A stretch of DNA of 64,000 bases, from NCBI RefSeq assembly GCF_947648125.1, contig NZ_CANSMR010000035.1, positions 1 to 64,000 of the forward strand. Reading direction: 5' to 3'. This DNA is from an uncultured Bradyrhizobium sp. GTDB taxonomy: Bacteria > Pseudomonadota > Alphaproteobacteria > Rhizobiales > Xanthobacteraceae. Made by a program: the position numbers and the translations under genes. Positions 3,640 to 47,560 of this stretch are shown piece by piece. Each line of letters begins with the position of its first letter. Position 1 is the stretch's first letter. The notes below the pieces were generated by a model. It had not been told where the DNA came from. It saw only the letters and a program-made list of their open reading frames with translations, and ran no database searches.

Positions 3640-4845
3640 ATGATCTGCAAGGCCATCACGGCAGCACTCGCGCTTGCAATCGCATCACAGGCGCACGCCG
3701 CCGAGAAGAAATACGGGCTAGGCGCCAGCGACACCGAGATCAAGCTCGGACAGACCTCGCCCTTCTCCGGCGCGGCATCGGCCTACAGCGTGATCGCGAA
3801 GACGCAGGCCGCCTACTTCAAGATGATCAACGACCAGGGTGGCGTGAACGGGCGCAAGATCAATCTGATCACGCTCGACGACGGCTACTCGCCGCCGAAG
3901 ACGGTGGAGCAGACCCGCAAGCTGGTCGAGCAGGAGGAAGTCGCCGCGATCCTCAATCCGCTGGGCACGCCGACCGGCCTTGCGGTGCGCAAATATCTCA
4001 ACGACAAGAAAGTGCCGCAGCTGTTCGTCGGCGCCGGCGCCACGCTGTGGGGCGACTATCTGCATTATCCGTGGTCGATCGGCTTCCAGCCGTCGTACCA
4101 GGCCGAGACCGCGGTCTACGCCAAATATGTGCTGACCAACAAGCCGGACGCCAAGATCGCGCTGTTCTACCAGAACGACGACGCCGGCAAGGATTACGGC
4201 AACGGGTTCAAGAAGGGCTTGGGCGCAGAGAACACCGCCAAGATGGTGGTGGCGGAGACGACCTATGAATCGACGGACCCTACGGTCGACAGCCAGATCG
4301 TGAAGCTGAAAGCCTCCGGCGCCAACGTGCTGTTCATGCACGCGATCCCCAAGCAGGCGGCGCAGGCGATCAAGAAGATCGGCGAGATCGGCTGGAAGCC
4401 CGACATGTTCTTCCTCGCGGCGACCTCGACCTCGGTGTCCTCGGTGCTGAAGCCGGCCGGCTTCGACTACTCCAAAGACATCATCTCGTCCTACTCGCTG
4501 AAGGATCCGAACGATCCGCAATGGAAGGCGGATCCGGACGTGATCGCCTGGCAGGACTTCATGAAGAAGTACTTCCCTGACGGCAATCTGCAGGATCAGC
4601 TGATCGTCTACGGCTATGTGGTGGCGGAGGCGACGGTGCAGGTCTTGAGGCAATGCGGCGACGACCTCACCCATGAGAACATCATGAAGCAGGCCGCCAA
4701 CCTCGACATCGCGCTGCCGATGTTCCTGCCCGGCATCAAGGTGAAGACCTCGCCGACCGACTACTTCCCGGTCGAAGCGATGCGGCTGCAAAAGTTCAAC
4801 GGCGAGACCTGGCAGCTGTTCGGCGACACGATCGGGAATGATTGA
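3640..4845 (+). CDS. ABC transporter periplasmic substrate-binding protein (branched-chain amino acid type)
   Basis: The frame is open from 3484, but the upstream part is family B repeat. ATG 3640 is chosen because AGGGAGG lies 6 nt upstream and a good signal peptide follows (residues 1-21, ending AHAA). The mature protein starts EKKYGLGASDTEIKLGQTSP and has the type I binding-protein (Peripla_BP_6) layout: FSGAASAYSVIAKTQAAYF, ... INDQGGVNGRKI, ... LDDGYSPPKTVEQTRKLVEQ. It would capture an amino acid or aromatic/aliphatic acid for an ABC importer in the periplasm. No permease or ATPase gene is adjacent, so it is an orphan component. It is flanked on both sides by copies of the same palindromic repeat. 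The substrate cannot be read from the sequence. Confidence 0.88.
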   Translation: MICKAITAALALAIASQAHAAEKKYGLGASDTEIKLGQTSPFSGAASAYSVIAKTQAAYFKMINDQGGVNGRKINLITLDDGYSPPKTVEQTRKLVEQEEVAAILNPLGTPTGLAVRKYLNDKKVPQLFVGAGATLWGDYLHYPWSIGFQPSYQAETAVYAKYVLTNKPDAKIALFYQNDDAGKDYGNGFKKGLGAENTAKMVVAETTYESTDPTVDSQIVKLKASGANVLFMHAIPKQAAQAIKKIGEIGWKPDMFFLAATSTSVSSVLKPAGFDYSKDIISSYSLKDPNDPQWKADPDVIAWQDFMKKYFPDGNLQDQLIVYGYVVAEATVQVLRQCGDDLTHENIMKQAANLDIALPMFLPGIKVKTSPTDYFPVEAMRLQKFNGETWQLFGDTIGND

Positions 4846-12567: not shown

Positions 12568-12665
12568 AGCGTTTTCGAGCGAAGTGGACGCCGGTTCGCG
12601 TGAAGAAAACGCGTCAATAATAAACTGGAGCTTCGGTTCTGATGCAATCAGAACCGAAGCTCTGA
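12564..12665. repeat. MITE-like element, family C copy 1
   Basis: It begins CTAGAGCGTTTTCGAGCGAA and ends ACCGAAGCTCTGA, about 98 bp between border tetranucleotides. It contains two internal stem-loops, one of them GAGCTTCGGTTCTGAT / ATCAGAACCGAAGCTC. The TAG of the left border is the stop codon of the TetR gene. Its right end lies 1 nt before the stop of the convergent membrane-protein gene, so it also fills the space between convergent genes and may help end transcripts. Confidence 0.85.
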
Positions 12666-18119: not shown

Positions 18120-19304
18120 TTACTCGACCAGCGTGAACTGCAGCAGCAAATTGCGCTGGATCAGGGAGAAATTGTCGTCGGAAACCATTGTCAGCACGGT
18201 CTCGCCCTCATCAGTGACATGGGCGTCGATGCCTTCCATGTTGTCGATCTCGTTGCCGAGATCGGCATTGAAGATCGCCGGACCATCGACGACGGCGCCG
18301 GGCGCGATGTCGGACAAAGCGAGGCGGCGGATGCGAATGCCGGCGCCGCCGAGCCAGGAGAATTTCCGCTCCAGGATCAACAGATCGCCCGACGGCAGCA
18401 GGACCGCGTCACTGATGTCGTAATTCTCGGTGCGGCGGACGCTGAACTGGCCCGGCGTCTTGCCGCCGACCAGGAAGGCGATCAGGTTGCCGCCGGCATC
18501 GAGCCCGCGTTCGGAGAGCGCGATCAACGTGCCTTCGAGCGGCAGCCCCTTCGGCACGAAGACGAGCGCCTCGAGCCCCTTGTTGATGGGTAGCTTGCGC
18601 GCCGCCGCTGGCAGCGGCACCACCTCGCCGCGCGCGCGGGTGAAGCCCTTGGCGAAATCGTAACGCAGCACCTGGTTGACCCGCTCGAGCCCGACATAGG
18701 CAATGGAGCCGTCGAGCGCGAGCGATTCCGAATCGTACCAGCCGCGGGTGGCGGTGATCGGTTTGCCGCGGGCGTCGAGCAGCGGCGCCGCCTCGACATC
18801 GTCGAGCCCGGCCATCTCCCGGCCGCGATAGACGATACGGCCGGTGAACCAGGTGCCCTGGTCGCTGACCGCAATGAAGCGTTCGCCCTTGGGATCGAGC
18901 CGCAGCGCGGAGAGGCCGCCGAACCCGGCGAATGACGAGGTCAGGATCAGGCCGCTGCGATATTCCAGCGCGCCGAACCGCACCCGCGCACGATCGCGGA
19001 TATCGAACGACGGCAGCGGCCGTGCGTTGACCTCGACCGCGGCGGGTTCATCGACGCGGTGACGGCCCGGCCTGCCGGGCGGTCCCGGCGTCAGCGCCGG
19101 CTGGCTCGCGCCCTGCGCCTGCGCGAGGCGCGGCAGCGCTGCGGCCGACAGCCCCGCCGCCACATCTCTCAGGAAATGGCGACGGCTAGAGCCTTTTCCG
19201 TTCCGATTGAATCGGAACGGGGCTCTAGATTCTTGTTTTGACGCGTTTTCTTTACGCGAACCGGTATCCACTTCGCTCGAAAACGCTCTAGGCGGTGAGC
19301 GCAT
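18120..19304 (-). CDS. Tat-exported phytase-like esterase with in-frame repeat insertion in its leader
   Basis: This 394-residue protein belongs to the esterase-like activity of phytase family (PF13449-type beta-propeller). VRFGALEYRSGLILTSSFAGF, GGLSALRLDPKGERFIAVSD and NMEGIDAHVTDEGETVLTMV are typical blocks. The leader contains a twin-arginine motif SRRHFLRD followed by VAAGLSAAALPRLAQAQG, so export is by the Tat route. Residues 6-39 are encoded by a family C repeat. Deleting that 102-nt unit gives MRSPP joined to SRRHFLRD, a normal Tat leader of about 32 residues and a 360-residue protein. The ATG lies 3 nt after the cobT stop, so it looks translationally coupled. Whether the lengthened leader is still exported is unknown. 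Confidence 0.82.
   Translation of the reverse strand: MRSPPRAFSSEVDTGSRKENASKQESRAPFRFNRNGKGSSRRHFLRDVAAGLSAAALPRLAQAQGASQPALTPGPPGRPGRHRVDEPAAVEVNARPLPSFDIRDRARVRFGALEYRSGLILTSSFAGFGGLSALRLDPKGERFIAVSDQGTWFTGRIVYRGREMAGLDDVEAAPLLDARGKPITATRGWYDSESLALDGSIAYVGLERVNQVLRYDFAKGFTRARGEVVPLPAAARKLPINKGLEALVFVPKGLPLEGTLIALSERGLDAGGNLIAFLVGGKTPGQFSVRRTENYDISDAVLLPSGDLLILERKFSWLGGAGIRIRRLALSDIAPGAVVDGPAIFNADLGNEIDNMEGIDAHVTDEGETVLTMVSDDNFSLIQRNLLLQFTLVE
19186..19291 (-). repeat. MITE-like element, family C copy 2, inside a coding sequence
   Basis: It is bounded by CTAG at 19186-19189 and CTAG at 19288-19291, with inverted ends CTAGAGC / GCTCTAG. It has two internal stems, one being TTCCGATTGAATCGGAA. 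Border-to-border distance is 102 nt, a multiple of three, and the minus-strand frame is open throughout. It lies within codons 5-40 of the phytase-like gene. Confidence 0.9.
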
Positions 19305-19307
19305 GTC

Positions 19308-21206
19308 TCACGAGTGGAGACGGCGCCGCGTGCCCGGTGCCGGCGCCGAGCCGTGGGTCTCGCTGAACAGTTCGGCGAGCTTCTCGGTGATGGCGCCGCC
19401 AAGCTCCTCGGCATCCACGATGGTGACGGCGCGGCGATAGTAGCGCGTCACGTCATGACCGATGCCGATCGCGATCAGCTCGACCGGCGAGCGAGTCTCG
19501 ATCTCCTCGATGATGTGGCGAAGGTGCCGCTCGAGATAGTTGCCGGGATTGACCGACAGCGTGGAGTCGTCGACCGGCGCGCCGTCGGAGATCATCATCA
19601 GGATGCGGCGCTGCTCGGGACGCGCGAGCAGACGCTTGTGCGCCCAGTCGAGCGCCTCGCCGTCGATGTTCTCCTTGAGCAGGCCCTCGCGCATCATCAG
19701 GCCGAGATTTTTGCGCGCACGACGCCACGGTGCGTCGGCCGACTTGTAGATGATGTGCCTGAGATCGTTGAGGCGGCCGGGATTGGCCGGCTTGCCGGCG
19801 GCAAGCCACGCCTCGCGCGACTGCCCGCCCTTCCAGGCGCGGGTGGTGAAGCCCAGGATCTCGACCTTGACGCCGCAACGCTCCAGCGTGCGCGCCAGGA
19901 TGTCGGCGCAGGTGGCGGCGACCGTGATCGGACGGCCGCGCATCGAGCCGGAGTTATCCAGCAGCAGCGTCACCACGGTGTCGCGGAAGGTCGCCTCCTT
20001 CTCATGCATGAAAGACAGCGGATGATAGGGATCGGTGACGACGCGCGACAGCCGCGCCGGATCGAGGATGCCCTCCTCGAGGTCGAAGTCCCAGGCGCGG
20101 TTCTGCTGCGCCATCAGGCGGCGCTGCAAGCGGTTGGCGAGCCGCGCCACGATGCCCTGCAAATGCGCGAGCTGCTTGTCGAGATAGGAACGCAACCGCT
20201 CGAGCTCGTCGTGGTCGCAGAGGTCTTCCGCGGCGATCACCTCGTCGAACTTCGGCGCGAACGCATGATACTCGGGGCCGCGCGGCTCGTTCTGGCCGCG
20301 GGAATTCGGCCGTGTCGCCTCGCCCGGCGTCTCGTCGTCGCCGAGTTCGCCGTCGTCGAACGTGTCCGACGTGGAGGCCTGCGCGCTCTCCATCGCGCTT
20401 TCGCTCATCTCTTCCGCTGACGTCTGGGCCTGGTCGGCGCTCATCTCCTGCGCGGCATCTGAATCGGGCGAGCCCTCGGCACCGGACTGATCGTTCTCGC
20501 CGTCCTGGTTCTCGTCCTGGTCATCATCGTCGTCGGAATCCATGTTGCGGTCGTCGCCGAGATCGAGCGCCGACAGCAGATCATGGACGAGGTCGCCGAA
20601 CCTGGCCTGGTCCTCGGTGAAACGGCTGAGCTGGTCGAGCCGCGAGCCGATCTTGTCCTCCAGCGTCGGACGCCAGAGATCGACCATCTTCTTGGCAGCC
20701 GCGGGCGGCGCCATGCCGGTCAGGCGTTCGCGCACCAGCATCGCCAGCGCATCCGACAGCGGCGCATCGGCGCGGTCGGTGATCTCGTCATACTTGCCGC
20801 GGTGGAAATGATCGTCGAGCATCGCGGTGAGATTCCTCGCAACGCCGGCCATCCGCCGCGAGCCGATCGCCTCGACGCGCGCCTGCTCGACCGCCTCGAA
20901 CACGCCGCGCGCTTGCGGATTGCCCGGCATCAGCTTGCGATGCACCTTGGGATCGTGACAGGCGATCTTGAGTGCGATCGAATCGGCGTGGCCGCGCACG
21001 ATCGCCGCATCGCGCTTGGTCATCTTGCGCGCCGGCTCCGGCAGCCGCGCCTTGCCGGGCGCAAGGCCCGGCCGCTCTGCGGCGAAGGAGACCTCGAGCT
21101 CCGGCTTCTTGGCGATCGCCTTCAGGCACGCCGACACCGAGCGCTTGAACGGCTCGGTCGGCGCTTCCTTCGAACCCGGACGGAATTTGATATTGGAGGT
21201 TGTCAT
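19308..21206 (-). CDS. cobT: Cobaltochelatase subunit CobT
   Basis: The 632-residue protein is the normal size for CobT, a subunit of the ATP-dependent aerobic cobaltochelatase CobNST that inserts Co(II) into hydrogenobyrinic acid a,c-diamide in B12 synthesis. The middle carries a strongly acidic stretch ([17 protein letters not shown] near residues 225-245). The C-terminal VWA domain has the metal-ion-dependent adhesion motif [13 protein letters not shown], as in magnesium-chelatase subunit D. The start overlaps the GNAT stop as ATGA, and cobS is two genes upstream, so cobS-GNAT-cobT are translated from one message. Confidence 0.95.
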
Positions 21207-37908: not shown

Positions 37909-38012
37909 CTGGAGCTTCGGTTCTGATTGAATCAGAACCGAAGCTCCAGATTCTTGTTTTGACGCGTTTTCTTCACGCGAACCGGCGTCCACTTCGCTCG
38001 AAAACGCTCTAC
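37909..38012 (-). repeat. MITE-like element, family C copy 4
   Basis: It reads from CTGGAGC at 37909 to GCTCTAC at 38012, with the same two stems as copy 2 (GCTTCGGTTCTGATTGAATC and the AAAACGC/GCGTTTTC pair); borders are about 100 nt apart. The left border has diverged to CTGG. Its right border supplies the stop codon of the livF-like gene (TAG on the minus strand at 38009-38011). Confidence 0.85.
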
Positions 38013-47116: not shown

Positions 47117-47560
47117 GTGGCTAAACCGCCGAAAGAAAATTCCCCGATCACCGAACACCTCACCTACCTGCTCGCGCAAGCCAACCGGGAGATCAACCGG
47201 CAGTTGGAGACGCGGCTGGCCAAGGAAGGCGTGCCGGTCGAGCAGTGGCGCATCCTCAAAGTGCTGTCCGACGGCAACGGACACTCGATGGGCGAGCTCG
47301 CCGACGCTGTGCTGCTCAACCATCCGACGCTGACCAAGATGATCGACCGCATGGTATCGGATGCGCTGGTCTATCGCGTGCAGGATCCGAAGGATCGCCG
47401 CAAGGTGCTGATGTTCGTCTCCGACCGCGGCAAGGCGCTGTGCCGCCGGCTGAACTCGCTGGCGGTGAGCCAGGAAGAGCACATCGTCGAGAGCTATGGC
47501 GACAAGTCGACCACCGAGCTCAAGCGCCTGCTGGAAAGCCTGATCGGCAGCGCAAACTGA
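47117..47560 (+). CDS. MarR family transcriptional regulator
   Basis: The product has 147 residues. The winged-helix core reads VPVEQWRILKVLSDGNGHSM, GELADAVLLNHPTLTKMIDR (recognition helix), MVSDALVYRVQDPKDRRKVL (wing) and MFVSDRGKALCRRL. Residues 10-30 form the dimer helix. It probably controls the divergent AmiC-like pair and perhaps the amidase operon. MarR proteins are usually released by a small phenolic or acidic ligand; here the ligand is unknown. It is convergent with the large membrane protein gene (14-nt gap). Confidence 0.9.
   Translation: MAKPPKENSPITEHLTYLLAQANREINRQLETRLAKEGVPVEQWRILKVLSDGNGHSMGELADAVLLNHPTLTKMIDRMVSDALVYRVQDPKDRRKVLMFVSDRGKALCRRLNSLAVSQEEHIVESYGDKSTTELKRLLESLIGSAN

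Follow-up and report, generated by a model that had tools for sequence, protein, structure and literature searches.

The gene of a phytase-like protein in an uncultured Bradyrhizobium sp. carries, between its conserved protein start and its twin-arginine motif, a 102-nt repeat unit that amounts to 34 extra residues. The best explanation, which we regard as very probable, is a most likely single insertion of a two-hairpin element within a small Bradyrhizobium clade, tolerated as an in-frame spacer in a protein that is probably still exported by the Tat pathway. Coordinates refer to the window, i.e., the whole analyzed stretch of 64,000 nucleotides (Table 1).

Table 1. Features of the phytase-like locus and its repeat element in the window
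Feature	Position	Strand	Description
Phytase-like protein gene	18120..19304	−	394 aa; MRSPP start, element-encoded residues, SRRHFL leader, PF13449 domain
Twin-arginine motif SRRHFL	19170..19187	−	Residues 40–45, RR at 41–42
cobT	19308..21206	−	Directly upstream; PF06213, PF11775
Two-hairpin repeat element	19186..19291	−	106 nt including the CTAG at either end; the inserted unit measures 102 nt
Left hairpin, conserved module	19240..19288	−	GCGTTTTC...GAAAACGC, inner stem GCGAA...TTCGC; from fold and conservation across 99 copies
Right hairpin, variable module	19186..19228	−	CTAGAGCCCCGTTCCGAT...ATCGGAACGG...GGCTCTAG; takes in the right-hand CTAG

Empty and filled sites at the leader

The phytase-like ORF opens with ATGCGCTCACCGCC, continues with a dispersed-repeat copy and AGCCGTCGCCATTTCCTG, and then reaches SRRHFL. 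CTAG occurs at positions 19186–19189 and 19288–19291, the unit from one to the next being 102 nt, and the ORF stays open across it—positions and frame that agree with the first-pass annotation. As judged by eye, the leader features an S/T-R-R-x-F-L motif, a hydrophobic stretch, and an A-x-A end (SRRHFLRDVAAGLSAAALPRLAQA). The Phytase-like domain (PF13449) is matched at residues 127–379 with an E-value of 2.5e-47 (Pfam). The gene follows cobS and cobT, and its ATG comes 3 nt after the cobT stop.

The leader site was aligned in 24 of 25 Bradyrhizobium genomes tried; G140 was left out because its anchor was not found. Exactly 102 extra nt are present in 4 of the 24 genomes—the own genome (G000), G108, G148, and G206, referred to as filled alleles—and the site is bare in the remaining 20. 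The distance from the ATG to AGCCG is 117 nt in the former and 15 nt in the latter. The twin Arg residues thereby move from residues 7–8 in the empty form to 41–42 in the filled form, and the reading frame through the element is open in all four filled genomes. An in-frame insertion that pushes the Tat motif about 34 residues inward, as proposed earlier, is borne out by these alleles. The empty site that an alignment of orthologues was to look for exists in 20 of 24 genomes, with CTAG in five of them and TTAG in the other 15 (YTAG in all 20). The opposite outcome, all orthologues carrying the 34 residues under purifying selection, was not encountered, with 20 of 24 sites being empty. Given the empty sites in relatives, the 102 nt represent an insertion at the leader; a loss need not be invoked for the many genomes that lie outside the clade.

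A genus-wide protein search found the phytase-like gene in 146 of 146 genomes, and a second one in 265 of 265, with some matches weak or partial. Among the matches listed in the latter search, only G000, G206, G148, and G108 align from query residue 1; the next-ranking ones begin at residues 38–40 and a few more distant ones earlier. Distant filled alleles may be missed by these figures. When 150 phytase-like loci (many being one gene represented twice, with G148 also present as Bradyrhizobium altum Pear77, L039) were scanned with an element profile, also for insertions at a second site of the gene, a leader copy came up only in the own genome, G108, G148, and G206. A profile match with a stop in G098 turned out on checking to contain no element. 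At the phytase-like locus of Nitrobacter winogradskyi (L112), two copies of the element lie close to each other 3′ of the start, at 3980–4084 and 4495–4568.

Structure and spread of the repeat element

The element is a two-hairpin, MITE/REP-like dispersed repeat. The element region has at least 53 matches in the own genome, a figure based on scoring 40 of 162 candidates. With up to three mismatches allowed, the 23-nt core of the element is found at 121 sites, compared with none for the reversed control pattern; 99 of the 121 sites were read as copies. The leader copy folds into two hairpins (−50.2 kcal/mol for the fold, z −7.89), beating 200 of 200 shuffles. The left hairpin is nearly invariant across the 99 copies. 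The right hairpin, in contrast to a shuffled control that yields it in 4 of 99 (best of 10 shuffles), is present in 63 of 99 copies at a score of at least 9, with 45 distinct arms that are still complementary. This count stems from a copy-by-copy scan, since RNAalifold on the 63 full copies failed to recover the right hairpin owing to gaps. Arms that vary yet keep pairing point to selection acting on the structure of the DNA or RNA. The first-pass reading as a dispersed palindromic element is supported by core sites, fold, and pairing. In the manner of a MITE, the element is short and multicopy (106 nt, 121 core sites) and has no transposase of its own. Its ends, TAGAGCGTTTTC and GAAAAGGCTCTA, form an inverted match of about 12 nt with one mismatch, each end also lying within its own hairpin.

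Across the order, 48 of 199 genomes, from 24 of 99 genera, contain related sequence; outside Bradyrhizobium, it is mostly the left module. The element ends are absent from all 11 transposase loci examined in three families (PF01797, PF01609, and PF13358). All nine Pfam matches to PF01609 and PF13358, together with the best PF01797 match, lie on contig C1 of the own genome, as in a mobile island. Two more core copies are located in the window at 12579–12601 (+) and 37975–37997 (−), outside any convincing coding frame. At three further loci (L151, L175, and L206), half-units stop just before a Shine–Dalgarno-like sequence and an ATG, as if forming 5′ leaders. Rfam gives no family at gathering score over the whole window. 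Three sub-threshold matches over the region were taken as chance, among them one to the Brucella sRNA CI27, which extends over the element and scores 17.9 bits (cut-off 59.8, E 0.48).

The two CTAG had been read in the first-pass annotation as a TA or CTAG target duplication, and this part is not supported. In half of the 50 parseable copies, the left dinucleotide is not TA; of these 25 copies, one shows it again at the right end, whereas 12 have TA there. Pairing between the right end and the internal arm of the right hairpin is seen in 34 of 50 copies, and in 7 of the 21 copies whose internal arm is not TA. Because of this pairing and the rarity of a repeated dinucleotide, the right-hand CTAG is largely part of the element. 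At the leader locus alone, the two readings are indistinguishable. A counter-example is the UreD allele of G148, which has CGGCA on either side of its insert, as judged by eye.

History of the leader insertion

The four filled alleles lie within a supported group of nine genomes (100/98) and are not one clade: The tree needs four changes between filled and empty, and a single clade is rejected by the AU test (p 0.001). The trees of the upstream and downstream regions need four changes as well. Together with the YTAG present at the site in 20 of 20 empty alleles, this pattern would fit a hot spot, in which YTAG before the RR codons attracts the element and several species acquired it at the leader in separate events. 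We consider this unlikely: In the upstream tree, the starred branches require no more than one change, and CCGCCT stands left of the junction in 4 of 4 filled alleles and in 0 of 20 empty ones. The elements of the filled alleles differ at 1–6 of 102 nt, with dS at 0.17–0.25. Speaking against a single origin, the right flanks of the filled alleles show as many as 11 differences in 60 nt. A single recent insertion that was spread or lost through recombination appears to fit the history of the leader best. In the favored mechanism, a dispersed nonautonomous MITE/REP-like repeat would have inserted into the phytase-like gene at YTAG, separating codons 5 and 6, mobilized by a transposase presumably supplied in trans. 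The insertion would most likely have been single and within a small Bradyrhizobium clade, its present distribution probably reflecting recombination or loss after a single origin.

In-frame copies in other genes

Frames running through the 99 copies were scored by codon usage; of the 78 ORFs that span a copy, 11 obtained a score above zero. In four or five of these 11, the element lies upstream of the likely true start (L150, L230, L204, and L197), and one (L195) has no Pfam match. Copies that look gene-internal number 6 of 99: the phytase-like gene, UreD, an ABC permease, and ApbE-like, CcmC-like, and SMP-30-like genes. The UreD, permease, and ApbE-like genes were each compared with 20 relatives, taking the distance between conserved anchors as the insert size. 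UreD carries +96 nt in G000 and G108 and +99 nt in G148, and is empty in 17 relatives, with G196 not parsed. The permease carries +102 nt in seven genomes and is empty in 14. The ApbE-like gene, whose product is UPF0280-like and whose Pfam match is below the cut-off, carries +102 nt in five genomes and is empty in 16. In the manner of the RPE palindromes of Rickettsia, the insertion is thus found in frame in four unrelated genes with empty orthologues. The 19 filled alleles of these four genes always have an insert of whole codons, and 60 nongenic copies are spread evenly over the length classes modulo 3 (20, 21, and 19); this is not an unbiased test since the search favors open frames and misses disrupted genes.

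The insert of UreD is internal, with PF01774 spanning it and domain on both sides. It falls at the break between two matched stretches in alignments to solved UreD/UreH chains, which suggests that it sits in a loop. This copy is found at 1790–1905 of locus L179 (contig C4 of the own genome at about 47404–47500). Between G000/G108 and G148, an A-T pair of the UreD right hairpin is exchanged for C-G: The pair is kept, and two residues are changed. Two further proteins contain the left half-unit. The CcmC-like protein has it in frame at its C-terminal end (locus L233, around 1828; own genome C18:100628) and the SMP-30-like secreted protein at the start (L177 around 1500, own genome C3:339839). 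At the latter locus, a variant of the core makes an ATG, so that both the start and the basic n-region of the signal peptide may come from the element.

The encoded peptide

The 102-nt unit length and a stop-free frame allow read-through as 34 residues, which are hydrophilic and net-basic and would extend the n-region in front of the RR motif. The AFSSEVD frame is used by five of six in-gene copies (P 0.016 given open-frame weights). It is also the frame most often open in the 60 nongenic copies (47, compared with 29, 3, 21, 20, and 24 for the others), and it is open in a copy of 3n length in only 14 of 60 nongenic full copies. Element changes over the four genes are synonymous in 13 of 37 cases, with 10.1 expected by chance. 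As no purifying selection on the encoded residues is detectable, the peptide looks like a tolerated spacer, with selection presumably keeping the frame and not, to a detectable degree, the sequence of residues. That the insert has acquired a function, its peptide or hairpin altering when the phytase-like protein is exported, how stable it is, or how it is translated, seems improbable. The element does begin 15 nt past the A of the ATG with the very stable fold given above, and it is less divergent between filled alleles than synonymous sites are. The peptide is, however, not visibly conserved, and the low divergence is also compatible with a recent arrival or a constraint at the level of structure. 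A broader generalization can be put forward tentatively and is on balance doubtful: Bradyrhizobium and its kin may possess a protein-coding palindrome system of their own, in which an order-wide two-hairpin element yields soluble linkers in its favored frame (AFSSEVDTGSREENASKQ...), so that working proteins would time and again retain insertions at leaders, termini, and surface loops, and these would be transferred from one species to another.

Start codon and export

The weakest alternative is a misannotated start codon, with the element upstream of the gene and translation beginning after it; passages of PMC3733652, which caution that repeats in N-terminal coding regions may for the most part be extragenic for this reason, and the four screened loci with such an arrangement speak in its favor, but it is very hard to reconcile with an ATG conserved in all 20 empty alleles 15 nt before AGCCG, with the lack of any in-frame ATG, GTG, or TTG between element and RR, and with the internal insert of UreD. 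The start ATG is common to filled and empty orthologues, and the different downstream start that the first-pass annotation had named as a refutation did not turn up. Apart from this ATG, the only codon that could serve as start is a GTG within the element, at residue 12, use of which would give a shorter extension. From SRR onward, dN/dS is 0.08–0.15 in six filled pairs and 0.11–0.20 in six empty pairs. With the low dN/dS of the rest of the protein and the conserved start, the element-bearing gene is no pseudogene: It is not decaying, and the protein is under purifying selection from SRR on.

Tat leaders average 37 residues according to passages of PMC1182353, the extra length lying mostly in the n-region. 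Very long n-regions may let Tat leaders escape recognition, as passages of PMC10924467 put it for one Streptomyces protein. Because the insertion leaves the phytase-like protein with its original start codon, RR motif, and hydrophobic stretch and with an unaltered mature enzyme, the protein is probably still exported by Tat, the extra n-region likely being tolerated before an intact RR, hydrophobic stretch, and AQA.

Comparison with known systems

RIME1, the Rhizobium-specific intergenic mosaic element attributed to Osteras (1995), is reportedly about 108 bp long, features two large palindromes, and occurs in rhizobia, with pckA said to be one of its sites. By this description, it resembles the Bradyrhizobium element with its 106 nt and two hairpins. 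No copy of the element was found around pckA in 30 loci, drawn from 30 of 92 matching genomes among which rhizobia are possibly absent.

Br-REP1 and Br-REP2 are repeated palindromes of Bradyrhizobium and Rhodopseudomonas, as stated in passages of PMC5082802. The element was not identified with either: Out of 500 shuffles each, 62 and 178, respectively, match as well as the consensus sequences do. Passages of PMC5896051 describe QMITE1 and QMITE2 of Coxiella as MITE-like, structured, and sometimes in frame in ORFs, and report QMITE2-like matches in Bradyrhizobium. QMITE2, as described there, is 150–190 bp long and holds a GTAG REP, unlike the 102-nt element, which is set apart by this description.

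Intragenic GTAG and CGTC REPs in ORFs of free-living bacteria, present also in Bradyrhizobium, are given with lists of repeat-encoded residues in passages of PMC3733652. The Bradyrhizobium element is like them in being a palindromic repeat within ORFs of a free-living bacterium. By the description in these passages, however, a REP is a single palindrome of 20–40 bp with a GTAG or CGTC tag, and the element, with 102 nt, two hairpins, and CTAG ends, is therefore not a GTAG or CGTC REP. Palindromic repeats in frame outside Rickettsia have been published before, along with such residue lists. In the literature searched, which lies mostly outside subscription journals, no paper was found that describes the element in proteins of Bradyrhizobium or within a Tat leader. 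The element in the leader is a real case, and in-frame palindromic repeats are already known as a class.

The likeness noted at the outset, that to the RPEs of Rickettsia, agrees with passages of PMC10969869 and PMC3733652: RPEs are palindromes of about 100–150 bp that lie in frame in unrelated proteins and encode a recurrent peptide. As far as these passages go, the Bradyrhizobium element shares the in-frame position in unrelated proteins and the repeat-encoded peptide, here with two hairpins. The host belongs to another order, and the likeness is one of description. Gene-borne copies make up 6 of 99 here, compared with nearly half of RPEs in ORFs according to passages of a review. Palindromic in-frame insertions are hence not limited to reduced intracellular genomes. 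The present system offers clean before-and-after pairs in sister species for a mobile element that lengthens an export signal, and the same element in the urease accessory protein UreD; with such pairs, how much a Tat leader or a folded protein can tolerate becomes directly testable.
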